Shown here piece by piece: positions 10,899-38,368 of a DNA stretch of 64,000 bases. The position numbers were made by a program, and so were the translations under genes. Within the stretch, counting starts at the first letter, position 1, and the number at the start of each line of letters is the position of its first letter. Where the stretch lies: assembly GCF_015354445.1 (NCBI RefSeq), contig NZ_JADKYT010000003.1, forward strand, positions 124,001-188,000. Reading direction: 5' to 3'. The stretch comes from Methylophilus sp. QUAN (GTDB lineage Bacteria; Pseudomonadota; Gammaproteobacteria; Burkholderiales; Methylophilaceae). The notes under the pieces are model-generated. The model had not been told where the DNA came from and searched no databases. It saw only the letters and a list, made by a program, of their open reading frames with translations.

Positions 10899-10963
10899 AA
10901 GTGTCTCCTTTGTTTCGCAGGCTCTGCGCCTGCCTATTGCAAATAGGTCTCTACAAAGGGTTA

Positions 10964-13368: not shown

Positions 13369-13385
13369 CTGGCATGTCGCTTGCT
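13369..13385 (+). promoter_or_regulatory. Sigma-54 promoter of the RutE-like gene
   Basis: CTGGCATGTCGCTTGCT: GG at 13371-13372, ten bases, GC at 13383-13384, with a good TTGC -12 element. It is 47 bases before the ATG at 13432. Confidence 0.78.
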
Positions 13386-20562: not shown

Positions 20563-20580
20563 CTGGCACGCTTCCTGCAA
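20563..20580 (+). promoter_or_regulatory. Sigma-54 promoter of the first DszB-like gene
   Basis: CTGGCACGCTTCCTGCAA: GG 20565-20566, ten bases, GC 20577-20578, with a perfect TGGCACG -24 element, 46 bases before the ATG at 20627. Confidence 0.82.
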
Positions 20581-20626: not shown

Positions 20627-21655
20627 ATGTCCGCAGATAACAAAATTGATAGCATTTGGTACACCCGCTGCCCGGTGCCCACCCCACTTGGCCTCGCCGC
20701 ACGCGAAGGCTGGATCAGCAGCGAATTTGTGCAAGATGGCATCGCCATCAATACCTTGCAGGAAACCCAGGATCCAGAGTTGCTGGAGTCACACTACGAC
20801 CACCGCTTGCCGCACTCTTTCCGCCAGGGCGGCAATGTACCAGCCATCTGGGCCAAAGCCAGAGGCACAGATACTAAAGTCATCGGCCTCAACTGGGTAG
20901 ACGAAGCACAACTGATCGTCACGTTGCCAAACTCCGGTATTAGCAAACCAGAAGACCTCAAAGGCAAACGTATCGCCTTGCCTAAAAATGACATCAGCAT
21001 CGACCACCAGCGCGCCAGCGCTTTGCGTGGCATTGTCGTGACGCTGGAAGTCGCCGGTTTGACGCCAAAAGACGTAGAGCTGGTCGATATTGCCGTGCCA
21101 AAACAAGCGCCAACAATAGGCTGGTCATCTGGCACACGCGTGGCTTACGCGCCAGAATATGAAGCCTTAAAAAGTGGCGAAGTCGATGCCATCTATGTCA
21201 AAGGCGCGCGCGGCTACGAAAGCGTAGACAAGCATGGTGTGACCATCATTTACGATGTGCGTAACCATCCGGACCCGAAAGTCAGAGCCAACAACAGCGC
21301 CCCACGCCCGATCACAGTGGATGCCGCCTTGTTGCGCGACCGTCCTGACCTGGTCGTCCGCTTTTTGAGCCGTGTAGTTGATGTGGCTGAATGGGCTGCC
21401 AAACACGAAGCCGACACCGTAGCTTATATCGCCAAAGAGTCAGGCTCTACCGATGAATGGGTACGCAAGGCTTATGGCAATGATGTACACCTGCACCAAG
21501 GTACCAACCTGGATGCTGAAGCGATTGCTGCACTGGAAGGCTATAAAAACTTCCTGCTGGAGTGGGGCTTCCTCAAGGGTGACTTCGATGTTAACGCCTG
21601 GGTCGACCCGGCACCATTGGCAGAAGTGTTCCGCCTGAAGAAAAAAGCCGCTTAA
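20627..21655 (+). CDS. DszB-like putative sulfinate desulfinase (paralogue 1), cytoplasmic
   Basis: 342-aa protein with the periplasmic-binding-protein type II fold but no signal peptide. Compared with 2-(2'-hydroxyphenyl)benzenesulfinate desulfinase DszB, whose catalytic residues are Cys27, His60 and Arg70, it has RCPVPTPLGLAAREGW with C15 aligned to Cys27 in DszB's NCPVPNALLTASESG. H56 and R66-Q-G-G are aligned to His60 and Arg70-F-G-G, with the same 10-residue His-Arg spacing. GITKPEDLKG-type and VDAIYVKGARG stretches also match. Predicted to release sulfite from an organic sulfinate; the alternative is a cytoplasmic or mis-annotated sulfonate-binding protein. The ATG at 20627 follows AGGAG; an upstream in-frame ATG at 20585 lies too near the transcription start. 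Confidence 0.72.
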   Translation: MSADNKIDSIWYTRCPVPTPLGLAAREGWISSEFVQDGIAINTLQETQDPELLESHYDHRLPHSFRQGGNVPAIWAKARGTDTKVIGLNWVDEAQLIVTLPNSGISKPEDLKGKRIALPKNDISIDHQRASALRGIVVTLEVAGLTPKDVELVDIAVPKQAPTIGWSSGTRVAYAPEYEALKSGEVDAIYVKGARGYESVDKHGVTIIYDVRNHPDPKVRANNSAPRPITVDAALLRDRPDLVVRFLSRVVDVAEWAAKHEADTVAYIAKESGSTDEWVRKAYGNDVHLHQGTNLDAEAIAALEGYKNFLLEWGFLKGDFDVNAWVDPAPLAEVFRLKKKAA

Positions 21656-21673
21656 TTCATTCGCGCATATCAG

Positions 21674-21699
21674 CAGGTATTTCCGGTAGGAAATACCTG
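21674..21699. repeat. Perfect 11-bp hairpin after the first DszB-like gene
   Basis: CAGGTATTTCC (21674-21684) and GGAAATACCTG (21689-21699) around GGTA, 18 bases past the stop codon. No T run follows on either side, so it may protect the 3' end or attenuate read-through to the peroxiredoxin gene. The remaining gap to 21844 shows no convincing promoter. Confidence 0.6.
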
Positions 21700-21844
21700 T
21701 GAACAACATAGAACACTATCTGTCCATCCTAGTACAACGAGCAGATTGGGCAGCTCACCGTGCCCACTGTCATTAGGACTGCGTGCTGCTGCTCAGGCCA
21801 GTCCCAACCACCGAACAATCATATGAAGCAAAAGGAGTTTTATC

Positions 21845-22483
21845 ATGACACTCAGACTAGGTGACATTGCCCCCGACTTTACCCAACAGTCTAGCCAAGG
21901 CCCAATTTCTTTCCACGAATGGCTAGGCGATAGCTGGGCCATCCTGTTTTCACATCCGGCAGACTACACGCCCGTGTGCACCACTGAGCTCGGTGCCACC
22001 GCCAAACTGGCCAGTGAATTTAAAAAACGTAATGTGAAAGCCATTGCGTTATCAGTAGACCCAGTTGAATCACATCATGGCTGGATCAAAGACATTAATG
22101 AAACACAATCGACAGACGTCCAGTTCCCCATCCTCGCTGATGCTGACCGTAAAGTCTCGACCTTGTATGACCTGATCCACCCCAACGCCAGCACCACGGC
22201 CACCGTACGCTCAGTATTCATTATTGACCCGCACAAAAAAATCCGCCTGACGCTGACCTACCCGGCTAGTACCGGGCGTAATTTTAATGAGTTGCTACGT
22301 GTGATTGATTCATTGCAGCTGACTGAATACCACAGCGTCGCCACCCCGGCCAACTGGGAAGACGGCCAGGATGTGGTGATTTTGCCTTCAATCACCGACC
22401 CGGTCGTGCTTGAAACCAAATTCCCCAAAGGCTACAAAACCGTCAAGCCTTATCTGCGCCTCACGCCGCAACCCAATAAGTAA
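21845..22483 (+). CDS. 1-Cys peroxiredoxin (Prx6 family)
   Basis: 212 aa thiol peroxidase. The peroxidatic cysteine is in SHPADYTPVCTTELGA. The C-terminal extension (about residues 160-212, with TPANWEDGQDVVILPSI) is typical of the 1-Cys Prx6 group; no resolving cysteine is apparent. It reduces peroxides, which could arise when reduced flavin reacts with oxygen outside the monooxygenases, giving a reason for its position. AAAGGAG precedes the ATG. It is 189 bases behind the desulfinase-like gene on the same strand and convergent with dodecin. Confidence 0.92.
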   Translation: MTLRLGDIAPDFTQQSSQGPISFHEWLGDSWAILFSHPADYTPVCTTELGATAKLASEFKKRNVKAIALSVDPVESHHGWIKDINETQSTDVQFPILADADRKVSTLYDLIHPNASTTATVRSVFIIDPHKKIRLTLTYPASTGRNFNELLRVIDSLQLTEYHSVATPANWEDGQDVVILPSITDPVVLETKFPKGYKTVKPYLRLTPQPNK

Positions 22484-22519
22484 TAAATCATTGCGCAAGG
22501 GTATAAACCCTAGCGCGAA

Positions 22520-22552
22520 TAAAAAACGGCCCGAGGATCAATCCCGGGCCGT
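22520..22552 (-). terminator. Terminator of the dodecin operon
   Basis: ACGGCCCG (22526-22533) and CGGGCCGT (22545-22552); on the minus strand the stem is followed by TTTTTT (22525-22520). The stem could also slow the convergent peroxiredoxin transcript. Confidence 0.85.
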
Positions 22553-22577
22553 GATCAAGACACTACACTGGGTATTA

Positions 22578-22787
22578 TTATTCTTCGATCCTAAAGCCAA
22601 CTTTAAGCGTGACCTGAAAATGCGCGACTTTGCCATCGGTTATGTGGCCCCGTGTTTCTACGACCTCAAACCAGTTCAGGTGGTGCAGCGTTTTTGCTGC
22701 ACGTTCGATGGCATTTTTAATGGCATCATCACTGCTGATGGGTGAAGACCCAACCAGCTCAACAACTTTATAAATATGCTCTGACAT
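22578..22787 (-). CDS. Dodecin, small flavin-binding protein
   Basis: 69 aa, full-length dodecin: [22 protein letters not shown] at the start, then [13 protein letters not shown] (with the flavin-stacking Trp and the R-G motif) and [11 protein letters not shown]. Dodecins form dodecamers that bind and buffer FMN/riboflavin in the cytoplasm. It follows the cupin gene by 48 bases and ends the operon begun by the second DszB-like gene. A flavin store next to flavin-dependent monooxygenases is reasonable but inferred. Confidence 0.93.
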
Positions 22788-22835
22788 GATTTTTATCCTT
22801 TATGTGGTTGAAGGATTTGCTTAACTGCCATTTGA

Positions 22836-23339
22836 TTATACTGCTTGCCAGACACGGCCGGGGGCACTCTGGTTGGGATTACCTTCAATGCGGATCAGCT
22901 TGGCCGGGCCATCGCGTCGTGGTGAGTGAATTTCGTTTTCGTTGTAGACGCGGACATTGCCAGGCTTGAGTTCAATAGAATCCCGCAGTTTGACGGTGCC
23001 GGGCTTGCCGCCAGGTTCGGCTGGCTCAATCACATCCCATCCATCCATGGTGGTGACCCCTGCGACCTGGCCATAAATCGCCCAGGAGACACCGTGGTCA
23101 TGCGGTTGCGTTCTTCTGGCCTCTTTAAACACGTGGCCCAAAATTGCAAAGCCTAAGTCCGTGTCTTCATACAACACACGCCGCTGTGGCTGGGTATCAT
23201 CCAGATATTCACTGGCAAACGCCTGGTCAGAGACCACGTCTTGCAGATAGACACGTACACGCTCACGTCCGGCTGGACCGTTATCTTCCAGCAAAAAAGT
23301 GCGTACCTGCTGCGCGACAGAATCAATGGTAAAAGCCAT
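22836..23339 (-). CDS. Cupin, cysteine-dioxygenase-like metal-dependent protein
   Basis: 167 aa single-domain cupin, similar to the predicted metal-dependent double-stranded beta-helix proteins related to cysteine dioxygenase. Metal-binding motif TQPHDHGVSWAIYGQVAG (H-x-H and downstream residues) and a second His in YNENEIHSPRRDG. Cysteine dioxygenases convert thiols to sulfinates, so a thiol dioxygenase feeding the neighbouring sulfinate desulfinase-like enzyme is an attractive inference. The ATG at 23339 follows CAGGAGCAAGC; the open frame continues to 23378 without a ribosome site. Second gene of the operon 24487-22578. Confidence 0.78.
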   Translation of the reverse strand: MAFTIDSVAQQVRTFLLEDNGPAGRERVRVYLQDVVSDQAFASEYLDDTQPQRRVLYEDTDLGFAILGHVFKEARRTQPHDHGVSWAIYGQVAGVTTMDGWDVIEPAEPGGKPGTVKLRDSIELKPGNVRVYNENEIHSPRRDGPAKLIRIEGNPNQSAPGRVWQAV

Positions 23340-23392
23340 GCTTGCTCCTGAAAAAGAAAGATGGCACGTGCAAGACACGCGCCATCATTGTG

Positions 23393-24487
23393 TTAAGCAG
23401 CCAGTTTGCCACCCTGTTCGTTAGCCAACAGTTGTTGTAACGCCTGCTGTGCATCGGCCAGCGGTCTGGTGTCTATCCAGGCATCAAAATCAAAGTCGCG
23501 GTCCAGAATGCCATAGGTGAGCAGGAAATTTTTCTGCTGACGGAACAGCTCGATGCGCTCTGCGGACAAATCAGGCGCCAGCGACAGATGGAAGCCATTA
23601 CGGTAAGCGGCAGCTACGCCCTCAGCGGTGCCACCAGTTTCGCTTTGCAGGATTTCATGCACACCGGCCAGGTTGGTTTTGGCCCACTCTGCCGCGCGCA
23701 AGGTTTGCGTTAAAAAGCGCACGACATAATCGTAGTGATTTTCCAACAGGTAGCGGTGGACAGTAATCGGGCGTGGCGTACCGTTATTCACGCGGAAACG
23801 CTTTTCCGGCAAGGCATCGAGATCAATGCCCACCAGCAGACCCTGGTCACGGGCACCATCCTGTGCCGCAGCACCTTTCACGTACACCGCATCTACTTTG
23901 CCTTCAAGCAAGGCATTAAAACTGGACTGCCAGCCGCCATAACGACGGCCAGACGCGGTCACTTCGTTTTGACCGACCTCGACCAGCTGGATGTCATCCA
24001 GTGTCAGGCCAACGGAATCCAGTGCGCCTTTATAACCATGCAGGCTGCTATGACGTGTGATGGTCCGGCCGCGCTTGTTCTCAATCACATCTTTGGGGTT
24101 ATACGCAGGCAACCCCAGGCGCTTGCCCTTGAGGTCTTCCGGGCGGCGGATATTGGAATCCGGGCGCACAATAATGGATTGTGATTCTTCGATCCAGGTC
24201 AAGCCGATTAAACGGGTTTCAGCGCCCTGCGCCTTGGCCGGGATGGCAAACAGGTTACCGCCTTCGCGGATCAGGGTTTGCAGGCCATGATCGTAATGGT
24301 GATGCCTGAAATCAGCGCTGTCGTCGTCCTGCAATGCACGCAGGCGAATATTGTCTGAAGAAAACTCCTCTTGCAACCAGCCCAGTTTGAATGCAATGCC
24401 AGAAGCCGTTGGCACGCCTCCTTGGCCGTTACCGGCACAACGCGTGAACCAAAGCGTATTGTCAGGAAGTTGTTGTTGGTGACTCAT
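23393..24487 (-). CDS. DszB-like putative sulfinate desulfinase (paralogue 2), cytoplasmic
   Basis: 364 aa, no signal peptide. FTRCAGNGQGG (C17, with a short Gly-rich insertion before VPTASG) corresponds to the DszB Cys27 segment. HHHYDHGLQTLIREGGN places H64 and R74 at the same 10-residue spacing as DszB His60/Arg70, followed by GG. It shares RPEDLKGKRLGLPAY, VDAVYVKGAA, VNNGTPRPITV and DFDFDAWIDTRPL with the other island paralogues and is closest to 34479-35537. It leads an operon with the cupin and dodecin, under a sigma-54 promoter about 180 bases upstream. Sulfite release from a sulfinate is the predicted reaction; substrate unknown. Confidence 0.72.
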   Translation of the reverse strand: MSHQQQLPDNTLWFTRCAGNGQGGVPTASGIAFKLGWLQEEFSSDNIRLRALQDDDSADFRHHHYDHGLQTLIREGGNLFAIPAKAQGAETRLIGLTWIEESQSIIVRPDSNIRRPEDLKGKRLGLPAYNPKDVIENKRGRTITRHSSLHGYKGALDSVGLTLDDIQLVEVGQNEVTASGRRYGGWQSSFNALLEGKVDAVYVKGAAAQDGARDQGLLVGIDLDALPEKRFRVNNGTPRPITVHRYLLENHYDYVVRFLTQTLRAAEWAKTNLAGVHEILQSETGGTAEGVAAAYRNGFHLSLAPDLSAERIELFRQQKNFLLTYGILDRDFDFDAWIDTRPLADAQQALQQLLANEQGGKLAA

Positions 24488-24808
24488 AAATACATTCCTT
24501 TAGTAAATAAAATGATTTTCATGGCGGGTCAAATGCATGACATTTGCCGCCAGCCTTTAGCACATGATGACCTCTGCCAACATACACAAGACTCGCCTGG
24601 GAACACCATTCTTGCAGTACATCTCCCATTCATCCCTGTGCTTGTTCAGCAGTTCGTGTAGTCTTCTGCACAAAATATGCCAAATGCAAAGAAAATTAAA
24701 TACCCAATAAAATTCAATGAGTTACATTCAATCACCAACACTGATAACAAGAGGGGTGTGTGCTATTGAACAGTCGTCTGATTTAATTTCAACAGTGACA
24801 TGCTCTGA
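24488..24808. promoter_or_regulatory. Leader/intergenic region upstream of DszB-like paralogue 2, with a sigma-54 promoter at 24667-24683
   Basis: No gene in this 321-base stretch. Minus strand 24683-24667 reads TTTGGCATATTTTGTGC: GG, ten bases, GC. It leaves an untranslated leader of about 170 bases, longer than elsewhere in the island. I found no TGTTGC-N4-GCAACA site here, unlike the other island promoters, and no clear terminator for the ABC genes ending at 24809. Confidence 0.6.
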
Positions 24809-26668
24809 TCAAAGCTGCTCACCCGCCTCATAGGCGTGATACAACTCGGCATATTTACCCTGCTGCTGGATCAGTTGCGCATGCGGACCGAGTTCAGCCA
24901 ATTCACCGTGATATATCACGGCAATCAGGTCAGCATCGCGGATGGTGGCCAGGCGGTGGGCAATAATAATGGCAGTACGGCCTTCGCATAAACGCCGCAA
25001 CGCGTGCTGGATACGTCGTTCGGTTTGTATGTCGACGGCCGACGTGGCTTCATCGAGAATCAGGATAGTGGGATTGGCCAGATAGGCACGTAGCAAACAC
25101 ACCAGTTGGCGCTGGCCATGACTGAGATGTGAGCCTAATGCGCCAACTTCGGTATGGTATCCGTGCGGCAGGCGGCTGATCAGGTCATCAATGCCCAACT
25201 CGGCCGCGGCTTGTTCAAAGTCAGCCAAGGTAGCTTCAGGTTTTGCCAGGTGCAGGTTATCTATAATGCTACCGCTGAACAGCACGTTATCTTGCAGCAC
25301 CACGCCTACATGCTGGCGCAGGTTGCGCTGGCTCAGCTGGCGAATATCGACCTGGTCGATGAGCACTTGCCCTTGCTGCACATCATAAAAGCGCGTCAAT
25401 AACTGGATGAGGGTGCTTTTGCCATGACCAGTGGGGCCAACAATGGCCAGCACCTGCCCAGCCGGGACCGTTAAATTGAGATGCTTGATAACAGGTTTGG
25501 ACTGGTCTGGTAAATAAGAAAAACTCACGTCTTTAAACGCTACCTCGCCCTGAATCGTCGGCAAGGCAATGGCATCTACGTGGTCTACAATTTCCGGCTT
25601 GGTATCCAGCAATAGAAACACGCGCTGTGCCGAGGCAACCCCATTGGTATAGCGCTCAACCAGGTCACCCAATTCTTGCAACGGCCCCAAAAACATATAG
25701 ACATAAAACAGGCTGGCGGCAAATTGGCCCAGAGTGAGATGGCCCAGCGTGACCTCTTCACCACCGGCAACTAACAGCAGCATCAGGCCCAGTATCGTCA
25801 GCACGCCCGTGAAGTGTGTGAACCAGCCCGAAGCAATATTGCTGCGGACCAGTGAATGAATAAAGGCATTGACCAGCGCGCGGTAGCGCTGCAAGTTGCT
25901 CTCTTCCTGCACGGTTTGTTTGATAATGCGCACGCCTGCCACGGTCTCGACCAGGTGCGCGGTAAAACGGGTACGGTTTTCAGCCACACGCGCAAAATGC
26001 TGGCTGGATAATTTCCGGAATAGCGTGCTGGAAAGGATGAGCAAGGGAATCACCAGCGCCAGGTGATAAAACAGCGTCGGCGACACCCACAACAATATGC
26101 CAGCGGCCATGACGAACCTGAGCAAGGCAGAAAATATCTCCGGCGGTCCTTGAATCAACAGTGGTTCCAGGGCATCAATATCCCGATCGACCCTGGAAAT
26201 GATGCGGCCAGACTTGGTACGGTCAAAGTAAGCCACGCTTAGTTGCTGTACGTGACTAAATAGGTCTATGCGCAACTGGTTCAAAATGCGGATAGCCGCC
26301 GTGCCGGAAAAATATTGTGACAAGCCTGCCAGCACAAAACGTGCGGCCCACATACCGGCAAGGCCAAGCATGGCGACATTAATCACCTGCCAGTTCAAGC
26401 CAACCACGGCACCACGGTCAGCCGCAGACTGTGACTCATACAGCAACCCAAAATCAATGGCCTGCTGAATAAAATAAGGGCGCAAGAACACAAAGCAAAC
26501 CAGGGCCAGCTCGAGCAGCATGGCACTCACAATATACTTGCGCACCGGCTTGAGTAGCGGCAGCAGGCGCCAGAACATATTGCGGTTCAGTTGCTGCTTG
26601 GCCAGGGTTTCTTCGAGTTCGATATCAGACAGGACCTTGATATTCGGGTTACGTTCAGCGGCCATCAT
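24809..26668 (-). CDS. Second ABC pair, subunit B (LSHGQ signature)
   Basis: 619-aa exporter-fold half-transporter, paralogue of 18611-20452, with near-identical motifs: YFDRTKSGRIISRVDRDIDALEP in the membrane domain, Walker A GPTGHGKST, Walker B ILILDEATSAVD, signature LSHGQRQL. Its start (ATG at 26668, or 26665) overlaps the end of subunit A by about 14 bases. It provides the intact Walker A/B of the asymmetric dimer. The two pairs lie in opposite orientation about 4.4 kb apart, which indicates an internal duplication within the island. Substrate unknown. Confidence 0.88.
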   Translation of the reverse strand: MMAAERNPNIKVLSDIELEETLAKQQLNRNMFWRLLPLLKPVRKYIVSAMLLELALVCFVFLRPYFIQQAIDFGLLYESQSAADRGAVVGLNWQVINVAMLGLAGMWAARFVLAGLSQYFSGTAAIRILNQLRIDLFSHVQQLSVAYFDRTKSGRIISRVDRDIDALEPLLIQGPPEIFSALLRFVMAAGILLWVSPTLFYHLALVIPLLILSSTLFRKLSSQHFARVAENRTRFTAHLVETVAGVRIIKQTVQEESNLQRYRALVNAFIHSLVRSNIASGWFTHFTGVLTILGLMLLLVAGGEEVTLGHLTLGQFAASLFYVYMFLGPLQELGDLVERYTNGVASAQRVFLLLDTKPEIVDHVDAIALPTIQGEVAFKDVSFSYLPDQSKPVIKHLNLTVPAGQVLAIVGPTGHGKSTLIQLLTRFYDVQQGQVLIDQVDIRQLSQRNLRQHVGVVLQDNVLFSGSIIDNLHLAKPEATLADFEQAAAELGIDDLISRLPHGYHTEVGALGSHLSHGQRQLVCLLRAYLANPTILILDEATSAVDIQTERRIQHALRRLCEGRTAIIIAHRLATIRDADLIAVIYHGELAELGPHAQLIQQQGKYAELYHAYEAGEQL

Positions 26669-28523
26669 CCAACCCCATCAGTGCACGATAACGTGCATTA
26701 TTTTTCACCAGCGCCTGGTGTGTATCCGCAGCGATAATGCTGCCACCTGCCAGGAATAACACTTTATCTGCCAGCAAAATGGTAGACAACTTGCTGGCAA
26801 TCACCAGTACCGTCGTTGCACGCCCTTGTGTTTTCAGGGCGCGGATATTGTTTAATACATTGCGCTCAGTCACCGCATCCAGCGCACTGGTGGCGTCATC
26901 CAGCACCAGGATACGCGGCTGCCCGAGCAAGGCGCGCGCCAGGCAGACACGTTGCCGCTGACCACCAGACAAAGTCACACCACGGTCACCAATGCGGGTT
27001 TCCAGGCCGTCACTCAAACTCAGCAGTAGCTCTGACGCACTCGCCATTTGCAGCGCCCATTCCAGGTCTTCGTCAGTAGCTGACGGCGCCGCCAGCCGCA
27101 TATTGGCCGCCAGCGTATCGGAGAACAAAAAGGCCTCCTGCGGTACGGTATGTACCTGTTTGCGCAATTCGGCCAGTTGCAGGTCTTTGACGTCCAGCCA
27201 TTGGCCATCACTTCCCGCAATTTCGACCCGGCCATGGCTGACTTCTGCCAGTCTGGGCACCAGACCGGCCAGCGTACTTTTTCCCGATCCGGTGGTGCCC
27301 ACCAGCGCCACAATTTCACCGGCTTCGATATCAAATGTGCAATCACTGAGTACCGGATTACCGCCTTCTGGCGGCAACACCGATACCTGTTTAAAGTGTA
27401 GTGATAATGGCCCGGCCGGTAAGGCCTGCGTGCCGGATGTGATATCTGGTTCAGCATCCAGCAGGTCCCAGATGCGGGCCGCCGAAGAGCGCGCATCGGC
27501 GAACACCTGCATGACCCGCCCCACACCTTCTACCCGAAACACCAGGGTATTCACCATGAGTAAAGCAGCAATCAACTGACCAAGATTGAGCGCGTGCGTA
27601 TAAACCAGGTGGCAGCCAAACCCCAGCACCCAGACTTGCCCTAGCGCGACCACAAATTGCGGCAAGGGAATACGTGAGGTATAGAACGACAGGGCGGCAA
27701 ACGCCTGTGTCATGAAGCCCTGCACCTGTTGCTCAAAACGTTTGATACGGCTGGCTTCCAGCGCAAAAGCTTTAATCACGCGTACGCCATTGACGCCTTC
27801 GGTCAGGTCCTGGTTCACGGCATCGTAGGCCTCGCCCACTGCCCGATCGAGTTTAACCAGGTGTTCGGTTTGCAACAGCAAAATACCAAACCCAATCAGG
27901 CACAACAGCAGCGGCACCAGGCCCAGCCAGAAGTCATACCAGAATAAAAAGCCCATGGCGGCGCTGACCACCAAGGCCGTATCTACCACCTGGCGCCAGA
28001 AGCTGATGAGCGCATCTCGCAACTTGTCAGAGTCGCGCGTGGTGCGCGTCACCAGTTCGCCTGCGCCATGTTGCCAGTGATAGCTTTGATCCAGTCGCTG
28101 CACCTGAATCAGGATACGCTCGCGCAAATGGCCAATCAGATTCTGCTGGATAATCAGCGATAACCAGCCAACAAAATACAAAATCGCGGCACGTGCCAGC
28201 GCAATGCCGACAATCACCAATAGCCAGTGCCAGGCCACCTCACTATTCAAAGCGCCAGTAACCGTGCGCACAATGGCTTTGCCATGCTGCACCTCATCAA
28301 TGGCCCGCGCAATCAGGCCTTGCTGTAATGCCAGCAGCACATTGGCCGCTGCAAACAGCCCGGTACAGAGCCAGAACCTGACCGGGGTTCGGCTATACAG
28401 CAGCAGACAGCGGATCAGCGGGTAATGGTGGCGATTAAAGGCAAAAAATGCAGGCCAGGGTGGCTGGCCTGACTGCGGTAATACAGGTTTGTTTTCAAGA
28501 GAGTGTTCAGTCAAAGGATTCAA
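26655..28523 (-). CDS. Second ABC pair, subunit A (degenerate Walker B)
   Basis: 622 aa, paralogue of 16774-18618. It shares the HWQHGAGELVTRTTRDSDKLRDALISFWRQV stretch, Walker A GTTGSGKST, signature LSGGQRQR and Walker B ILVLDDATSALD with Asp for the catalytic Glu. The start appears to be TTG at 28523 (the other subunit A also uses TTG), with only a weak purine-rich site in front. It stands 109 bases after the two import permeases on the same strand; a poor -24/-12 match at 28566-28581 could be its promoter. Confidence 0.85.
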   Translation of the reverse strand: MNPLTEHSLENKPVLPQSGQPPWPAFFAFNRHHYPLIRCLLLYSRTPVRFWLCTGLFAAANVLLALQQGLIARAIDEVQHGKAIVRTVTGALNSEVAWHWLLVIVGIALARAAILYFVGWLSLIIQQNLIGHLRERILIQVQRLDQSYHWQHGAGELVTRTTRDSDKLRDALISFWRQVVDTALVVSAAMGFLFWYDFWLGLVPLLLCLIGFGILLLQTEHLVKLDRAVGEAYDAVNQDLTEGVNGVRVIKAFALEASRIKRFEQQVQGFMTQAFAALSFYTSRIPLPQFVVALGQVWVLGFGCHLVYTHALNLGQLIAALLMVNTLVFRVEGVGRVMQVFADARSSAARIWDLLDAEPDITSGTQALPAGPLSLHFKQVSVLPPEGGNPVLSDCTFDIEAGEIVALVGTTGSGKSTLAGLVPRLAEVSHGRVEIAGSDGQWLDVKDLQLAELRKQVHTVPQEAFLFSDTLAANMRLAAPSATDEDLEWALQMASASELLLSLSDGLETRIGDRGVTLSGGQRQRVCLARALLGQPRILVLDDATSALDAVTERNVLNNIRALKTQGRATTVLVIASKLSTILLADKVLFLAGGSIIAADTHQALVKNNARYRALMGLDDGR

Positions 28524-28565
28524 CTTCTATCTATAAATCTTGATCTTTGCGTACAGCATCACGCT

Positions 28566-28581
28566 GCGATTTCTGCGCCAA
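28566..28581 (-). promoter_or_regulatory. Weak sigma-54-like site before the second ABC pair
   Basis: Minus strand TTGGCGCAGAAATCGC has GG-N10-GC spacing, but both elements deviate (GGCGC, TCGC). About 45 bases before the TTG start. Tentative. Confidence 0.3.
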
Positions 28582-28632
28582 GATCTATCTATTGAGTGCG
28601 GCGATGGCTTATGGTGATGGTTGCGGATGGCG

Positions 28633-29406
28633 CTAGCCGACCTGACGCCATTTGAACAGGTGATTACTCGCCAGCTTAATCAGCAGAGACATCCCATAAC
28701 CGAGTACGCCAATCACAAAAGTCACAATAATCAGGACATCCATCCGGGAAGCTTCCTGTGCGTTCATCATTAAATTGCCCAGCCCGGCACCAGCGGTAAA
28801 CAATAACTCGCTACCGATGGTGGATAACCAGGCAAACGCCAGTGCCAGTGAAAAGCCGGTGAATACCTGCGGCAAGGCAGCGGGCAAGGTGATGCGGCGA
28901 TAGATCTGCCAGCGGCTCAAGCGATACACCTGGCCGACTTCATTAAAACGGCGGTCAACTTGCAACATGCCTTCAAAAGTTGATAACACCACCGGGTAAA
29001 ACGCCGACAGGCTGACCACAATCAATTTTGAGGTATCGCCATTGCCAAACCATAATGCGAACAATGGCACCAGGCCCAGCAAAGGCACCTGGCGGATCGC
29101 ATGGTAAATCGGCGTAATCAGGATATTGGCTGTGCGCGATACAGCCACCAGTGAACCCACCAGGAACCCCGCACTTGCACCCAGCAACAGGCCAGTGAGC
29201 GCACGCTGCACGCTGGCCTGTACATTCACTAGCAACTCGCCACTGCGGCTGAGCTCGACCACGCCTGCCCAGATCTGCCCCAACGAAGCAAAGGCATACG
29301 CATGATTGGCATCCAGGCGCGACATCGCATCCCAGGCCAGAATCACCAATATCGGCAATACCCAGCCACGCCAGTCGGGGATCCATTTATAAAAAGAATT
29401 TTGCAT
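28633..29406 (-). CDS. SsuC-type ABC transporter permease (2)
   Basis: 257 aa BPD-type inner-membrane permease of the sulfonate/nitrate/taurine group, about six membrane segments. The EAA loop region VYRLSRWQIYRRITLPAALPQVFTGF is the contact with the ATPase SsuB-like protein (32261). QVPLLGLVPLFALWFGNG is the family's central motif. It is the last gene of the six-gene operon from 33136. Two different permeases suggest a heterodimeric channel, where the classical SsuC is a homodimer. Confidence 0.88.
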   Translation of the reverse strand: MQNSFYKWIPDWRGWVLPILVILAWDAMSRLDANHAYAFASLGQIWAGVVELSRSGELLVNVQASVQRALTGLLLGASAGFLVGSLVAVSRTANILITPIYHAIRQVPLLGLVPLFALWFGNGDTSKLIVVSLSAFYPVVLSTFEGMLQVDRRFNEVGQVYRLSRWQIYRRITLPAALPQVFTGFSLALAFAWLSTIGSELLFTAGAGLGNLMMNAQEASRMDVLIIVTFVIGVLGYGMSLLIKLASNHLFKWRQVG

Positions 29407-29444
29407 ACGGATATCTATCTATTCACTTGCGGTTGATTGCGGGC

Positions 29445-30212
29445 TTAGGCTTTCACGGCAGCCTGCCAGGGAATCAGGCGGATCTCGGCCCACTTAAAGA
29501 GTTTGTCTATGCTAAATCCGACCAGGCCGGTGATGACGACGCCGACCATGACCACGTCCAGGCGGAACATTTCGCGGCCCAACTGCATCATTTGGCCGAT
29601 GCCGCTATCAGCCGCCAGCAGCTCTGCCGCGACCAGGATGGTCCATGAGCGCGAAAAAGCGATCCTGAGCCCGGTGAATACCGGCGGCGTAATGGCCGGG
29701 ATAATCAGCTTGCGATACAGCGTGGTTTTAGGCAGGTGATAAATGCGCGCCACCTCGAAATAATTTTTCGAGACACCTTTGGTCGCATCATAGGCGGCCA
29801 GCGCCACGGTCAGAAAAGCGGCTTTGGTGACAATAATGACCTTGAAAATCTCATCCACACCCAGCAACAAGATCAGGATAGGAATCAAGGCAATGGTAGG
29901 CACCTGACGCAGGCCCTGAAACAAGGGCAAGGCAAACGCTTCCACACGTGGCGAGATCGCCATCCAGATACCAAACAGCACACCGGTGAGTGCACCGAGG
30001 CCAAAACCAGTGAGCAGGCGGAAAAAGCTGGCTTTGAGGTGTAAGGCCAGCTCGCCATTCGCGGTGAGCTCTTCCAACGTTGCCACAACGGCACCCGGCG
30101 AGACTAGTACGTCGTCAGAGTACCAGCCTGCCGCAGCTACCCACCACCAGACCACCAGCAGCAAGAACGGCGAAATCAGGAAAGGGAAAAATTGTTTCCA
30201 GTCACGTGTCAT
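29445..30212 (-). CDS. SsuC-type ABC transporter permease (1)
   Basis: 255 aa inner-membrane permease. It has LRQVPTIALIPILILLLGVDEIFKV (family core) and the EAA loop YHLPKTTLYRKLIIPAITPPVFTGL. It lies 24 bases after exbD and 38 before the second permease. With SsuB-like ATPase and a binding protein (33374) it would form a sulfonate/organosulfur importer. Confidence 0.88.
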   Translation of the reverse strand: MTRDWKQFFPFLISPFLLLVVWWWVAAAGWYSDDVLVSPGAVVATLEELTANGELALHLKASFFRLLTGFGLGALTGVLFGIWMAISPRVEAFALPLFQGLRQVPTIALIPILILLLGVDEIFKVIIVTKAAFLTVALAAYDATKGVSKNYFEVARIYHLPKTTLYRKLIIPAITPPVFTGLRIAFSRSWTILVAAELLAADSGIGQMMQLGREMFRLDVVMVGVVITGLVGFSIDKLFKWAEIRLIPWQAAVKA

Positions 30213-30236
30213 ACACTTACACCCCTAGCCTCTTCA

Positions 30237-30641
30237 CTACTCGCCTTGCGTCAGCACAGCCACGCGCGTAATGCCGGCGCGCTCAATCGCCGCCATCACC
30301 TTGGCCACTTTGCCGTAGTTCACGGCTTCATCTGAACTCAAGTGCAAGGTCACATCAGGGTTGCTATCGTGCAAACGTTTCAGTTCTGGCTCTATCGTTT
30401 CCAGTGGATATTCCTGGCGGTCGATAAACAGCTTGCCAGCAGCATCTACCGACACCGTCACCGGTTTTTTCTGCTCGGGTGCTTTGGTGGCAGCTGTTTT
30501 AGGCAAGTTGACCTGAATGGCATTGTTCATCAATGGCGCGGTGACAATAAACGCCACCAGCAAGACCAGCATGACATCAACCAGGGGCGTAACGTTGATC
30601 TCACTCAAGACGTCATCATCAGCATTTGTAGAAATAGCCAT
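30237..30641 (-). CDS. exbD: ExbD, TonB energising protein
   Basis: 134 aa: one N-terminal membrane helix carrying the proton-relevant Asp (INVTPLVDVMLVLLVAFIV) and a periplasmic domain ending in AIERAGITRVAVLTQGE. Overlaps exbB by one base. Part of a dedicated TonB complex for the receptor at 14227 (inference from co-location and common sigma-54 control). Confidence 0.93.
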   Translation of the reverse strand: MAISTNADDDVLSEINVTPLVDVMLVLLVAFIVTAPLMNNAIQVNLPKTAATKAPEQKKPVTVSVDAAGKLFIDRQEYPLETIEPELKRLHDSNPDVTLHLSSDEAVNYGKVAKVMAAIERAGITRVAVLTQGE

Positions 30642-31384
30642 TATGCAGTGGCTCCTTTCAGGTTACGCACCACACCAGCGGTGCCAGTGGCAACGAACTC
30701 GCCTGGTTTGGTCGCATCTGTGGCTTTTCTAAAGGTCACGCGGCGGGAGACTTTGATCAGGTCTTCGGCAAAATCGTCCAGGTTGTTGCTGCTGGTTTTT
30801 AAACGGCGCAGGAAGAAGTTATACGCCAGCACCGCAGGAACCGCGACAGCAATACCAATCGCTGTGGCCACCAGGGCCTCACCGATCGGCCCAGCCACCA
30901 CTTCCAGGCTGGCAGTGCCTAGTTTGCTGATATCCGTCAGCGCATGCATGATGCCCCATACTGTGCCCAACAGGCCGACGAACGGTGCGGTACTGCCGAT
31001 ACTGGCCAGCACCACCAGGCCTGCTTCACGCAAAACTTTTTCTTTCTGGATTTGTTGACGCAAGGCGCGCTCCAGCACCTCCTGGCGGTCACCACTATGA
31101 CGCAAATCATCTGCCGCTTCGGCATCCAGGTCTTTCAAGGTTTCAAAGCCAACTTGAGCCACACGGTATGCCGGGCCACTATGGCCTTCAAGCGTAGACG
31201 CTTCCTGCAAACTTTTCGCACCCCAGAACGCGGCCCTGAATTTAACGTTTTGCTTGCGGATCAGCCAGACCTGGAACGACTTGGCCAAAATAATGGTCCA
31301 GGTCACGCCTGAGGCCACCAGCAAAGTAATCAATACACCAAGCACCACTGGGGATGCACTTTGATAAGTTTCTAAACTAAACAT
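30641..31384 (-). CDS. exbB: ExbB (MotA/TolQ/ExbB proton channel family)
   Basis: 247 aa, three membrane segments: N-terminal near VVLGVLITLLVASGVTWTIILAK, then EAGLVVLASIGSTAPFVGLLGTVWGIMHAL and GEALVATAIGIAVAVPAVLAYNFF, which are the TolQ/ExbB signature helices. With ExbD it forms the proton channel driving TonB. It is 25 bases behind tonB. Confidence 0.94.
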   Translation of the reverse strand: MFSLETYQSASPVVLGVLITLLVASGVTWTIILAKSFQVWLIRKQNVKFRAAFWGAKSLQEASTLEGHSGPAYRVAQVGFETLKDLDAEAADDLRHSGDRQEVLERALRQQIQKEKVLREAGLVVLASIGSTAPFVGLLGTVWGIMHALTDISKLGTASLEVVAGPIGEALVATAIGIAVAVPAVLAYNFFLRRLKTSSNNLDDFAEDLIKVSRRVTFRKATDATKPGEFVATGTAGVVRNLKGATA

Positions 31385-31409
31385 ACACTTTCCTTTTCAA
31401 AATAAAAAA

Positions 31410-32243
31410 TTACTGCAGCTTGAACTCAACCGGGAATATGGCCCAACCTTCAACCGGGGTATTCCCACGTTTTGCCGGGGTAAATGCCCAGCGTTTCGCT
31501 GCAGCAACCGCAGCATCATCCAGTATGCCGTGGCCACTGGACTTCTTGACTTTGACCTCACCTGGCTTACCATTCGGCAAGACTTTTACCCGCAACACCA
31601 CCGTGCCTTCCAGGCCTTGATCAGCAGCAAAGTCCGGATACTCTGGAGAGGGATTATTTAAGTGACCAACACCGCCTTTGGCCTCAACCAATGGCTCCTC
31701 TTTAATGACGGGCGGCTGCGGTGCCGGTTCTGGCGTGGGCTCAGCCACCACCGGGCCGCTGGTTTTCGCCGCCGTGGTGTTTTCTTGCACCACAATATCG
31801 CTAGGCGCAATATGCTGATCAGCAGGGGCGGTTCTTAATGCCGCAGGCTTGGCGGCCTGTGGCGGTGGGTTCGCGCGCTGCACCTTGGGTGGCGGCGGTG
31901 GCGGTGGCTTTGGCGGCTCGATGACTGGCGGCGGAATCACCTCAGGCTTAATAAACTCGACAATCACTTCGGTTTTCTTCGGCTTGACGATACTGGGCTG
32001 ATGCAAGGCATTGATAAACCCCGTCAGCCCGATAATATGCGCCAGCACCACCACAGCAATCAGTGCCAGCAATTTGTTGCGTGGAATGATCTGATCGACA
32101 CGATTCCATTGACTGACGACACGCTCAGATAACTTGTCAAAGTCCTCACTGGTCGCAACCAACCGCCTGGCCTTGCTTTTATCTGACAGGGAATCCCAAA
32201 TCGTGGAATGCTGCGCGGGCGTTTTTAGTGCCGTTGTTGACAT
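31410..32243 (-). CDS. tonB: TonB
   Basis: 277 aa. A cytoplasmic N-terminus of about 55 residues (longer than usual), a membrane helix near residues 56-78 (LLALIAVVVLAHIIGLTGF), a proline-rich periplasmic spacer (EPPKPPPPPPPK), and the C-terminal TonB domain with GLEGTVVLRVKVLPNGKPGEV and AAVAAAKRWAFTPAKRG. Transmits energy to outer-membrane receptors. TTAGGAGTTTGT precedes the ATG. It sits inside the ABC-import operon, immediately after the ATPase gene. Confidence 0.94.
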   Translation of the reverse strand: MSTTALKTPAQHSTIWDSLSDKSKARRLVATSEDFDKLSERVVSQWNRVDQIIPRNKLLALIAVVVLAHIIGLTGFINALHQPSIVKPKKTEVIVEFIKPEVIPPPVIEPPKPPPPPPPKVQRANPPPQAAKPAALRTAPADQHIAPSDIVVQENTTAAKTSGPVVAEPTPEPAPQPPVIKEEPLVEAKGGVGHLNNPSPEYPDFAADQGLEGTVVLRVKVLPNGKPGEVKVKKSSGHGILDDAAVAAAKRWAFTPAKRGNTPVEGWAIFPVEFKLQ

Positions 32244-32260
32244 ACAAACTCCTAAATACT

Positions 32261-33136
32261 CTAACTAATCTCGATGAAGTCACTTAAGACATCATCTTTA
32301 ATATGCTGAAACTCGGCTGAAGTACGGTGCCGTGGCCTAGGCAAATCGACGTCGACGACACGCTTGATACGTCCGGGATTCGCTTCCATCACTACCACAC
32401 GATCACCCAGAAACACCGCTTCTTCCACGTCGTGCGTAACCAGGATGGACGTCGTGCCTTCGGTTTCCCACAGACGCTGCAACTCTTGCTGCATCTTCAG
32501 GCGGGTCAGGGCATCCAGTGCGCCAAACGGTTCATCCAGCAACAGCAAGCGCGGTTTAAGCACCAAGGCCCTGGCGATGGCGACACGCTGTGACATACCG
32601 CCGGAAATCTGGTGTGGGTAAGCCTGGGCAAACCCACTCAAACCAACCAGCTCAATCTGGTGTTTGACGCGTGCATCAATCTCCTGCTGCGTCAACCCGG
32701 ACGATTCCAAGGCCAGCGCTACATTCTGCTCAACGGTCAGCCATGGAAACAATCGATGCTCTTGAAACACCAGCCCTCTATCGAGCGAGGTGCCAGACAC
32801 TTGTTCACCTAGCCAGACGATGTTGCCGTCGTAGCTGCTATCCAGACCGGCAATCAGTCTGAGCAAGGTGGACTTGCCGCAACCACTGCTACCGACAATC
32901 GAAATAAACTCGCCTTTGCTGACGGCCAGCGAAAAGTCAGACAACACCGTCAGCGCTTTACCGTTGAGTTGGAAAGTTTTGGAGACGCCCTCTACCGCCA
33001 GCACAGCGGAGGCAGTTGCCAGTGACAGATGCTGCCCCCCACGCAGGCCCGATGATCTGACCGAGGTCAGGCCGTCTCCTGGATGATCAGCGTGTGCTTC
33101 GTTAATCACACTTAAAGCAGTTTTGGGGCGACTCAT
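32261..33136 (-). CDS. SsuB-like ABC importer ATPase
   Basis: 291-aa ATPase of the nitrate/sulfonate/taurine group. Walker A GSSGCGKST, signature ISGGMSQRVAIARAL, Walker B LLLLDEPFGALD, and switch His in THDVEEAV. The Q-loop region reads VFQEHRLFPWLTV, characteristic of SsuB/TauB. The N-terminus has an extra 45 residues before the ATPase core. First gene of a six-gene unit (ATPase-tonB-exbB-exbD-permease-permease) under the sigma-54 promoter at 33171. Confidence 0.9.
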   Translation of the reverse strand: MSRPKTALSVINEAHADHPGDGLTSVRSSGLRGGQHLSLATASAVLAVEGVSKTFQLNGKALTVLSDFSLAVSKGEFISIVGSSGCGKSTLLRLIAGLDSSYDGNIVWLGEQVSGTSLDRGLVFQEHRLFPWLTVEQNVALALESSGLTQQEIDARVKHQIELVGLSGFAQAYPHQISGGMSQRVAIARALVLKPRLLLLDEPFGALDALTRLKMQQELQRLWETEGTTSILVTHDVEEAVFLGDRVVVMEANPGRIKRVVDVDLPRPRHRTSAEFQHIKDDVLSDFIEIS

Positions 33137-33170
33137 GTTTTATCCTGTACAAATAACTAGGTATCTATAG

Positions 33171-33187
33171 GCAATCGCTGTGCCAAG
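33171..33187 (-). promoter_or_regulatory. Sigma-54 promoter of the ABC-TonB operon
   Basis: Minus strand TTGGCACAGCGATTGCC: GG (33184-33183), ten bases, GC (33172-33171), with perfect TGGCAC and TTGC elements. About 35 bases before the ATG at 33136. Confidence 0.82.
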
Positions 33188-33291
33188 TTGAAAATTAATA
33201 TTTATCATTTAATAATCATATGGTTATGAATAAAATGGCGAATACCCCATATTGAGCAATGTTGTATATCCATCATTTGATTGATGCCTGC

Positions 33292-33307
33292 TGCTGGCAT
33301 AGCAACA
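33292..33307. promoter_or_regulatory. Activator-site inverted repeat (TGCTGG-N4-GCAACA)
   Basis: A variant of the island repeat with a strong GCAACA arm, about 108 bases above the sigma-54 promoter at 33171. Confidence 0.5.
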
Positions 33308-33310
33308 GAC

Positions 33311-33342
33311 ATAAAAAAACAGATGGCGGGAGACCATCTGTT
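33311..33342 (-). terminator. Terminator of the binding-protein operon
   Basis: AACAGATGG and CCATCTGTT (33318-33326 / 33334-33342) form the stem; on the minus strand TTTTTTT follows. It ends the operon 36276-33374. Confidence 0.85.
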
Positions 33343-33373
33343 ATCAGGGATTGCCGGGAGGCAATGAGGGTTA

Positions 33374-34435
33374 TTATTGTGAAGCGACGCGGGCAGGTGC
33401 CCAGAACGTTTCCAGGTTGAGCTCTTTCAAGGCTTTGTCGACAAAGCTGGAATTGAGCAGCTGCTGAATATCAATATCGTTGCGAATCAGGCCGGACTCA
33501 CGTGCATAAGACGCGGCACGCTTGTAATGATCTACCAGCGCCTGGTCATATAGCGGTGACCAACGATCACGCCAGCTCACACTATCGTCCTCATAATCAC
33601 GCCTGACCACACTCTCGGGCTGCACCAGGCTGGCATACTCTTTGAGATAGGTTTCTTTGTGTGCCTCTTGCGCGGCCCAATGGTTGGCTTTAATAAACGA
33701 GGTCACGATGGCCTGGGTGAGTTCAGGATGCTCTTTGACAAAGTCATTGCGTGCCCACAAACCACCCATCAGTTTCCAGTCTGGTGGTGCATTCTTGGTT
33801 GACCAGATAATCTTACCCACGCCTTTATCCACCAGGTTATAAGCATCGCTTAACGAATAGAAGGCATCCACTGAGCCGCTTGCCAGTGCCGCAGCACCCA
33901 CTTGCGGATTTACATTGACGATTTTGAAATCGGTCAGCTTGAAGCCATTTTTTTGCACCAGGTTGGCAAATGGGATCTCCCATGGACGGCCTCTATGCAA
34001 GGCAATGCGCTTGCCTTTGAGGTCGGCAATGCTTTTCGCCGTTGAGTTGGCGGGCACCACAAGATAAGAGTTACCGCTACGCCCCCACGGTGACACCAGT
34101 TGCACGCGCGGTTTGGAGCCGTTCAAAATAATCGGCGGCAAATCGCCATAAGCAGCAAAGTCTATGCTTTTGTTGGCAAAGGCTTCATTAACAATCGGCC
34201 CAACCATGGCGGTGGCCGCTGGCACCCACTCCAGCTTGACGCCGCGTTTGGCCAAGGCCTCTTCGAGACCGGTTTCACTGGCCAGCTCGGTGCTGCCCAG
34301 GTAATGCGTTTTGCCATTGAGGTTATAGGCCACGGTGGCAATCCGAACCACTTTCGGGTCGGTTTCAGCATGCACCATGGGCGCAGCCAGCGCCGCCACG
34401 GTCAACACTGATAATACATATCGTAAAAATCTCAT
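33374..34435 (-). CDS. SsuA-like periplasmic sulfonate-binding protein
   Basis: 353-aa true periplasmic binding protein: signal peptide MRFLRYVLSVLTVAALAAP then VHA/ET. It then shows the NitT/TauT/SsuA fold: FAAYGDLPPIILNGSKP, SIADLKGKRIALHRGRPWE and a C-terminal helix-rich lobe. It delivers a sulfonate-like ligand to the permeases at 28633/29445. The ATG at 34435 follows AAGGAGTAAGTAGT. The presence of a signal peptide here contrasts with its three DszB-like cousins. Last gene of the operon with 34479 and 35554. Confidence 0.88.
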   Translation of the reverse strand: MRFLRYVLSVLTVAALAAPMVHAETDPKVVRIATVAYNLNGKTHYLGSTELASETGLEEALAKRGVKLEWVPAATAMVGPIVNEAFANKSIDFAAYGDLPPIILNGSKPRVQLVSPWGRSGNSYLVVPANSTAKSIADLKGKRIALHRGRPWEIPFANLVQKNGFKLTDFKIVNVNPQVGAAALASGSVDAFYSLSDAYNLVDKGVGKIIWSTKNAPPDWKLMGGLWARNDFVKEHPELTQAIVTSFIKANHWAAQEAHKETYLKEYASLVQPESVVRRDYEDDSVSWRDRWSPLYDQALVDHYKRAASYARESGLIRNDIDIQQLLNSSFVDKALKELNLETFWAPARVASQ

Positions 34436-34478
34436 ACTACTTACTCCTTGTTTATTCTTAAGCTTGGCGAACCAGGCT

Positions 34479-35537
34479 TTAGGCAACCGCAGCATATTGA
34501 TGCAATTGTTGCTCGGCATCCCGCAATGGCCTGAAATCAATCCAGTCATCCAGGTCAAAATCTTTGTCCAACAGGCCGTGCACCAGCATGAAGTTCTTTT
34601 GCTGGTGGAACAGCGCTACACGTTCCGGGGACAAATCAGGGGCCAGTTGCAGATGGAAGTTTCCCCCATACGCCGTCGCCACGCCATCTTCGCCAGAGCG
34701 GGTTTCGGATTCCAGAATCTCGCGCACACCTTTGAGGTTACTTTTGGCCCAGTCTGCCGCACGCAAGGTCTGGTAAAGGAAACGCACCACCAGGTCATAA
34801 TGATTGTCCAGCAATGACTGATGCACGGTAATCGGCCGTGGCGTGCCATTATTGACGCGGCTCGACAACTCGGGATAACTGTCGAGGTCTATGCCCACGA
34901 CCGCACCAACGCGCTTGGCGGCATCGACCGCAGACGCGCCTTTCACATACACTGCATCGACTTTGCCTTCGATGAGCGCATCCAGACCAGACCACAACTC
35001 GCCCAGATTATTACTGTTATCACGACCATTGCGGTTACCACGACCAGACGGCACCTCTACCAGACTGACATCATCCAGCGTCAAGCCAGCAATGTTCAGC
35101 GCGCCTTTATACCCATGCAAACTCATGCCTCGCGCGATACTGCTACCACGCACATGGCTGGCAATCGGGTGCTCGATAAACGCCGGCAACGCCAGGCGCA
35201 AGCCCTTCAACTGCTCAGGCTGGGTGATGCCGCTATCCGGCCGCACCAGAATCGCCTGCCACTCGTCAATCCAGGTCAGGCCAATGAGTTTGGTCGGCGC
35301 ACCCTGGGCTTTGGCGGCCAGTGCCAGCAAGTTACCCCCTTCGCGGATCAATGAAGGTAATTCATGATCATAATGATGCTTGGACAGCTCTTTCGGCGCC
35401 TCCTGCAAGGTGGCGATGTTGATGTTGTCCCGCGCGAACTCTTCATTGAGCCAGCCCAATTTATAGGCCAGACCAGTGGCGGTCGGCACCGGGCAACGCG
35501 TGAACCAGAGTTGGTCGATAGTGTGTGCTGTGGTCAC
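34479..35537 (-). CDS. DszB-like putative sulfinate desulfinase (paralogue 3), cytoplasmic
   Basis: 352 aa, no signal peptide. FTRCPVPTATGLAYKLGW has C15 equivalent to DszB Cys27; KHHYDHELPSLIREGGN has H55 and R65 (10 apart, as DszB His60/Arg70) followed by GG. It is most like 23393-24487 in the rest (VNNGTPRPITV, DFDLDDWIDFRPL). It has an insertion rich in Asn/Gly/Arg near residue 165. I start it at GTG 35537, with CAGGAGCG upstream, 16 bases past the aldolase-like gene; the frame is open to 35600 but that overlaps the upstream gene. Predicted to liberate sulfite from a sulfinate; otherwise a cytoplasmic ligand-binding relative of SsuA. Confidence 0.72.
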   Translation of the reverse strand: MTTAHTIDQLWFTRCPVPTATGLAYKLGWLNEEFARDNINIATLQEAPKELSKHHYDHELPSLIREGGNLLALAAKAQGAPTKLIGLTWIDEWQAILVRPDSGITQPEQLKGLRLALPAFIEHPIASHVRGSSIARGMSLHGYKGALNIAGLTLDDVSLVEVPSGRGNRNGRDNSNNLGELWSGLDALIEGKVDAVYVKGASAVDAAKRVGAVVGIDLDSYPELSSRVNNGTPRPITVHQSLLDNHYDLVVRFLYQTLRAADWAKSNLKGVREILESETRSGEDGVATAYGGNFHLQLAPDLSPERVALFHQQKNFMLVHGLLDKDFDLDDWIDFRPLRDAEQQLHQYAAVA

Positions 35538-36276: not shown

Positions 36277-36320
36277 TGTCAGTCCTTTCAAAATACATGT
36301 GAAAACAACACGGACTATTT

Positions 36321-36337
36321 TGCAAAGACTGTGCCAC
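36321..36337 (-). promoter_or_regulatory. Sigma-54 promoter of the aldolase-DszB-SsuA operon
   Basis: Minus strand GTGGCACAGTCTTTGCA: GG (36335-36334), ten bases, GC (36323-36322), with perfect TGGCAC and TTTGC elements, about 46 bases before the ATG at 36276. Confidence 0.82.
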
Positions 36338-36435: not shown

Positions 36436-36572
36436 GCAAAATGTTGAATTCCCATCCCTCACCAAGGCCGCCACCAATATAACCAATATGAATATTGTTA
36501 TAATTTATAGAACTTTGACTTATTAATGATCAATGTAATATAGTGACTCGCCTGTTAAATAAGGAGTCAATG

Positions 36573-38351: not shown

Positions 38352-38368
38352 AGCAAATTAAATGCCAG
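38352..38368 (-). promoter_or_regulatory. Sigma-54 promoter of the FMN reductase
   Basis: Minus strand CTGGCATTTAATTTGCT: GG (38366-38365), ten bases, GC (38354-38353). About 37 bases before the ATG at 38316. Confidence 0.8.

Follow-up and report, generated by a model that had tools for sequence, protein, structure and literature searches.

Described desulfinases and the Methylophilus locus

DszB is the desulfinase of the dibenzothiophene pathway. Its step limits the rate of oil biodesulfurization and is the least understood one, according to the accessible text of PMC6100217, and its active-site residues are given as Cys27, His60, Arg70 and Gly73 in that of PMC12168087. In the mechanism proposed for it, as far as that text sets it out, the proton of Cys27 attacks the sulfinated aromatic carbon, aided by the His60-Ser25 pair (PMC6100217); so described, the mechanism would favour aryl or otherwise activated sulfinates as preferred substrates, methane- and ethanesulfinate not being established. 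Three genes for DszB-like proteins, designated DESA, DESB and DESC, were analysed in a window of 64,000 nucleotides from Methylophilus sp. QUAN (contig NZ_JADKYT010000003.1, positions 124,001 to 188,000 of the forward strand). Taken together, the comparisons below indicate that the three are probably cytoplasmic sulfinate desulfinases, forming a proteobacterial branch of DszB with the type II binding-protein fold.

In the Gordonia terrae bdsABC benzothiophene operon, a desulfinase gene already occurs apart from the dibenzothiophene pathway, according to the accessible text (PMC3868597). This actinobacterial operon, likened here by its description only, combines a desulfinase gene with DszC-like and DszA-like genes and acts on a non-dibenzothiophene substrate. 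The sequence-only reading of the Methylophilus DNA had proposed a new desulfinase branch outside that pathway; membership of the DszB family and a sulfur-scavenging context are borne out, and a position outside the pathway is not in itself new. DszA-like genes are reported to be present, and DszB to be absent, in a sulfolane-degrading Rhodoferax (PMC6395730) and in Gordonia alkanivorans 135 (PMC11852219), and putative desulfinases are mentioned in the accessible part of a Gordonia transcriptome study (PMC7661421). No description of a proteobacterial DszB branch was recognised in the literature search, most subscription papers lying beyond its reach.

Identification of three DszB-like proteins

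20627-21655, plus strand: DESA, DszB-like, 342 residues, C15/H56/R66
23393-24487, minus strand: DESB, DszB-like, 364 residues, C17/H64/R74, placed by phmmer and multiple alignments
34479-35537, minus strand: DESC, DszB-like, 352 residues, GTG start, C15/H55/R65

The three open reading frames lie where the sequence-only reading had placed them, DESB and DESC on the minus strand, which it had left unmentioned. They were the sole matches to a DESC query within their own genome (E value 0.01). DESC was 97% identical to a copy in Methylophilus sp. 42 and 85% identical to one in M. rhizosphaerae; within the window it was 61% identical to DESB and 40% identical to DESA. The proposal of three paralogues for different sulfinates is not established, DESA being a separate branch and DESB and DESC this similar.

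In the multiple alignment the Cys, His and Arg claimed as catalytic occupy the C27/H60/R70 columns of DszB in all three proteins and are accompanied by Gly72-Gly73 (with Gly73 included, C15/H56/R66/G69 in DESA, C17/H64/R74/G77 in DESB and C15/H55/R65/G68 in DESC). The spacing of 10 residues from His to Arg and the following Gly-Gly, also claimed, are exact in each. Pairwise alignments with DszB agree with the multiple alignment for DESA and DESC; that of DESB, which carries a 6-residue insertion immediately after its Cys, starts past the Cys, puts the His two residues off and matches the Arg and Gly-Gly alone. The assignment of Cys and His in DESB therefore rests on the multiple alignment. The alignments imply that Cys, His and Arg would meet in one pocket. 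As had been claimed, none of the three has a signal peptide: the Cys, at residue 15-17, stands behind a polar stretch, and by eye this also holds when DESA and DESC are read from their longer potential start codons.

Comparison with DszB and with binding proteins

Two sets of rows were compared at the DszB active-site columns. The desulfinase-like set comprised 54 rows (52 family rows and 2 DszB); the binding-protein set comprised 66 rows, 63 of them distinct. Apart from six others, these were mainly homologues of the binding protein encoded in the window itself.

33374-34435, minus strand: periplasmic binding protein with an obvious signal peptide

The desulfinase-like rows had Cys in 46/54, His in 49/54, and Arg and Gly73 in 54/54; the binding-protein rows had none of the first three residues (0/66 each; the Cys column is gapped in 3 rows, the His and Arg columns in 1) and Gly73 in 64/66. 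Gly73 is thus not discriminating, whereas Cys, His and Arg are, and their chance occurrence is ruled out by the same counts. A hydrophobic N-terminus was seen in 54 of 63 binding-protein rows scored, which is support and not proof, the start codons having been chosen by script.

Structure prediction and phylogeny, the two computational checks put forward with the sequence-only reading, both came out on the side of DszB. The predicted folds of DESA and DESC were closest to DszB, with binding proteins at lower Z scores, and the best PDB match of DESB by phmmer was DszB (6.6e-7). In a quick IQ-TREE phylogeny of 68 rows, the DES proteins grouped with DszB and were separated from the 16 binding-protein rows (including two duplicates) with a support of 99 by the SH-like approximate likelihood ratio test; details near the base of the tree are uncertain because of long branches in several outer rows. 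Placement of the three proteins with DszB is supported by the sequence profile, by the folds predicted for DESA and DESC, by the catalytic residues and by the tree.

The same data bear on the idea that these are ordinary periplasmic binding proteins of ATP-binding cassette (ABC) transporters, as their relatives are annotated. A Pfam match to NMT1 speaks for it, as do matches to the SsuA family, although these fall below the cut-off (97, 51 and 56 bits for DESA, DESB and DESC against 163.5; the true binding protein at 33374-34435 also falls short, with 111). With SsuA/TauA and related sulfonate-binding proteins the DES proteins share the type II binding-protein fold and a sulfur-starvation context; those proteins differ in lacking the Cys, His and Arg, in their mostly hydrophobic N-terminus and in their lower Z scores. 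The SsuA scores, the missing signal peptide, the DszB-type residues, the closeness in fold to DszB and the separate binding protein adjoining DESC led to rejection of this explanation, which is very improbable.

The likeness to DszB extends over the full-length fold, the Cys27/His60/Arg70/Gly72-Gly73 residues, a PVP motif after the Cys (interrupted in DESB) and, in two relatives, an A-B-C gene order. The DES proteins differ from DszB in having Thr for Ser25, His for Tyr63, Lys for Trp225, Glu for Gly99 and Arg for Ser253, in natural Ser and Gly variants of the Cys, and in a proteobacterial context with sigma54 and TonB elements. The Ser25 column is Thr in 48/52 DES rows. DES-conserved columns that differ from DszB include R14, H58, W89, E92, K199, P233 and R234 (DESC numbering) and bring charge or His to positions occupied in DszB by Asn, Tyr, Gly, Trp or Ser. 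These branch-conserved charged residues hint at a substrate more polar than 2'-hydroxybiphenyl-2-sulfinate. R14, H58, E92, K199 and R234 would also suit another enzyme on the same fold, carrying out a protonation-driven cleavage such as decarboxylation or the loss of another leaving group; 4,5-dihydroxyphthalate decarboxylase, MqnD and Thi5 have this fold. Such an enzyme is rather improbable; a desulfinase function is likely by homology.

Relatives and Cys-less copies

At an E value of 1e-40, relatives were found in 8/397 genomes of the phylum (the window's own included) and 5/232 genera, in a survey that scored at most 5 first-look candidates per genome. In GTDB contigs, 313 stretches encode a relative, and the best 80 of the 313 were retained as 78 loci, 60 of these longer than 20 kilobases (kb). 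DESC also matched 93 plasmid records. Among the 60 matches listed, 18 were labelled 'ABC transporter substrate-binding protein', 1 'monooxygenase' and 2 'aliphatic sulfonate ABC transporter substrate-binding protein' (weak, probably true binding proteins), while 39 had no label; none of the 60 was labelled a desulfinase, a label that a true dszB does carry. The suspicion that relatives are mis-annotated as ABC binding proteins was well founded, this being their usual label where they are annotated.

From the fetched loci, 191 unique relatives were taken (more than 200 bits, at least 250 residues, window copies included). Cys is present in 157/191, and all of Cys, His, Arg and the two Gly are kept in 155/191. 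In the 34 relatives without the Cys it is replaced (by Ser in 29, by Gly in 5) within the same clusters, and on a tree of representatives the Cys/non-Cys label switches at least 7 times. Most Ser copies (24/29) come from Pseudomonas loci, where 20 of them lie immediately downstream of a Cys copy; every locus with a Cys-less copy (34/34) also has a Cys copy. The conserved tandem arrangement, in which the Cys copy precedes a Ser copy with His and Arg kept, was seen in the Pseudomonas loci L040, L042-L044, L046, L047, L049-L053, L056, L062-L066, L068, L075 and L076. Two Methyloversatilis copies (L018, 12546-13661; L023, 12521-13666) have Gly at the Cys position and Phe at the His position. Cys to Ser is the exchange present in the substrate-bound DszB crystal (2DE3, from the accessible part of its description). 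The Cys-less copies may lack activity, serve in regulation or catalyse a different reaction, and part of the family may thus be non-catalytic.

Extended to the whole family, this would make the DES proteins non-catalytic binders or sensors of sulfinates or sulfonates in the cytoplasm, which channel or sense substrate beside monooxygenases. Their fold is that of binding proteins, and the persistence of the Ser and Gly variants in loci that also have a Cys copy suggests that Cys-less copies keep a role. Retention of the Cys in the three window proteins and in most relatives, and the absence of Cys, His and Arg from all 66 binding-protein rows, point the other way, and a wholly non-catalytic family is unlikely.

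Gene content of related loci

Neighbours were counted by script over the 78 related loci, within about 10 kb. A luciferase-type monooxygenase of any kind was present in 66/78 and a class II aldolase-like gene in 64/78, and at least two DES genes in 59/78. ABC exporter-fold half-transporters (at least 50% identity) occurred in 49/78, TonB receptors in 42/78, SfnB/DszC-type genes and binding proteins in 36/78 each, sigma54 activators in 30/78, DszA/NtaA-type genes in 12/78 and MsuE in 8/78. Divergent class II aldolase-like genes were the most constant partner after the monooxygenases; as a very common and unexplained partner, they favour the possibility of another enzyme on the same fold.

Within the DES loci of 12 of these genomes, 17 monooxygenases were counted by hand, against 0.54 expected from genome-wide density. 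By NCBIfam, neighbours of the luciferase and acyl-CoA-dehydrogenase types were near SfnG, SsuD and SfnB below cut-off, and 2/10 scored above cut-off in NtaA/DmoA; one of the latter had DszA as a strong PDB match (5.5e-81), outranked by YtnJ/MoxC. SfnB-like neighbours matched NF042439 below cut-off. This family, 3-sulfinopropionyl-CoA (coenzyme A) desulfinase, which from its name we take to release sulfite from a sulfinate, differs from the DES proteins in belonging to the acyl-CoA dehydrogenase superfamily. Rhizobium sp. T1473 and Sinorhizobium sp. B11 have a luciferase-type monooxygenase gene, then DES, then an acyl-CoA-dehydrogenase-type gene, the same arrangement as in the control dsz genes; by gene order, DszA- and DszC-type genes adjoin DES in the relatives L096 and L103.

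Genes and sigma54-like sites in the window

8653-10994, minus strand: two SsuD-type monooxygenases dependent on reduced flavin mononucleotide (FMNH2), under family cut-offs
12403-13107, minus strand: second class II aldolase-like protein (PF00596)
14227-16692, plus strand: TonB-dependent outer-membrane receptor (TonB-siderophor family, 175 bits, cut-off of 223.5 not reached)
16774-20452, plus strand: two ABC exporter-fold half-transporters, upstream of DESA
21845-22483, plus strand: peroxiredoxin downstream of DESA (AhpC-TSA, 1-cysPrx_C)
22836-23345, minus strand: cupin adjoining DESB, thiol-dioxygenase-like, with PHDHG and HSPRR motifs
24809-28523, minus strand: a pair of ABC exporter-fold half-transporters lying between DESB and the permeases
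28633-29406, minus strand: ABC importer permease (BPD_transp_1)
29445-30212, minus strand: second ABC importer permease, by sequence and position
30237-32243, minus strand: ExbD, ExbB and TonB genes within the DESC operon
32261-33136, minus strand: ABC importer ATPase
35554-36279, minus strand: class II aldolase-like, first gene of the DESC operon (PF00596)
36570-37706, plus strand: sigma54-dependent activator, named SfnR-type by context (Sigma54_activat, 240 bits)
37765-38316, minus strand: MsuE-type FMN reductase (TIGR03566, 192 bits, cut-off 212.5)

The binding protein at 33374-34435 had been taken as part of the same operon as the desulfinase-like genes; its signal peptide is confirmed, and the operon is shared with DESC only. 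DESA is on the opposite strand, and DESB lies 10 kb downstream of DESC, following a gap of 321 base pairs (bp); a single operon for all three is ruled out by strand and spacing. The TonB-ExbB-ExbD set is embedded in an operon with ABC importer genes. Both half-transporter pairs adjoin a desulfinase-like gene, and a sulfur compound may be imported or exported by them. A methylamine dehydrogenase large subunit is encoded at 2446-3663 (685 bits), so the host probably uses methylamine.

Sites were scored against what we took to be the sigma54 -24/-12 consensus.

13370-13385, plus strand: perfect site, 47 bp before 13432
20564-20579, plus strand: one mismatch, 48 bp before DESA
24667-24682, minus strand: one mismatch, 180 bp before DESB
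36321-36336, minus strand: perfect site, 42 bp before 35554-36279 (DESC operon)
38352-38367, minus strand: perfect site, 36 bp before msuE

The window holds 3 perfect sites against 0.5 expected (3/100 shuffles reach 3), all of them 36-47 bp ahead of genes of the DES region. Sites with at most one mismatch numbered 13 against 11.7 expected, no more than by chance; only the perfect matches and the placement are therefore informative. Eight of the 13 lie within 250 bp before the start of a gene on the correct strand, all 8 in the DES region, and 5 do not (p 7e-6 for placement, with the analysis's own gene list and the 250-bp limit). SfnR is reported to control dimethyl-sulfone use in Pseudomonas, and the activator, the MsuE-type reductase and the sites fit a sulfur-starvation regulon of the SfnR kind. 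The window context supports sulfur scavenging, not a dibenzothiophene operon; adjacent DszA- and DszC-type genes, as in the 4S (dszABC) operon, were not found in the window with one SfnB/DszC-type relative and a DszA/NtaA-type query.

Candidate sources of the sulfinate

The cupin had no Pfam or NCBIfam match at 1e-3. Its best PDB match, to mercaptosuccinate dioxygenase, was weak (7e-4), and the others (0.02 and worse) include cysteine- and 3-mercaptopropionate-dioxygenase entries; these three kinds of dioxygenase make sulfinates. The HDH and a later His, three His in all, were kept in all relatives seen. Of 15 genomes searched, 4 have the cupin, in every case near a DES gene (in one of them within about 10 kb), and 11 lack it. 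From its sequence, the cupin is a possible sulfinate maker. Relatives of the SsuD-type pair sit inside DES loci of Janthinobacterium, Massilia and others.

Several observations weigh against a desulfinase function. Besides the DESB pairwise alignment and the Cys-less relatives, identity to DszB is 22-26%, and the DES locus is devoid of monooxygenases in 4 of the 12 genomes. The cupin is present in 2/78 related loci and its link to thiol dioxygenases is weak. A tblastn search of the whole window with one SfnB/DszC-type relative as query gave no such gene, and a DszA/NtaA-type query met only the two SsuD-type genes, which lie at a distance of about 10 kb from DESA. For this last reason the source of the sulfinate is one that we infer, possible candidates in the window being the SsuD-type pair and the cupin.

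Proposed function

If the DES proteins are desulfinases, sulfate starvation would switch the region on through the SfnR-type activator, as the promoter-like sites suggest. An organosulfur compound would be taken up by the TonB receptor and the ABC importer, and the FMNH2 monooxygenases, supplied by the MsuE-type reductase, would convert it to a sulfinate, which the cupin would perhaps also make. By analogy with DszB, the His and Arg would hold the sulfinate and the Cys would donate a proton to the sulfinated carbon, with charge steadied by a Thr-His pair (Ser25-His60 in DszB); the sulfite released would serve cysteine synthesis.

A broader proposal, tentative and judged somewhat short of even, is a sigma54-controlled proteobacterial regulon that yields sulfite through dedicated DszB-type desulfinases acting on natural sulfinates of polar or aryl type. 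SsuD/SfnG/DszA-type monooxygenases, and in some lineages a thiol dioxygenase, would provide the feed, and the Ser twin of Pseudomonas would serve the active copy as carrier or regulator. This makes testable why a Cys-less twin persists beside a Cys copy. If true, many new enzymes would be recognised across Pseudomonas, methylotrophs, Oxalobacteraceae and rhizobia, and a common annotation corrected. Bacteria would free sulfur from natural sulfinates by DszB chemistry, not through sulfonates alone, and a route by which organic matter yields its sulfur may have escaped notice because the relatives are usually labelled as transport proteins.

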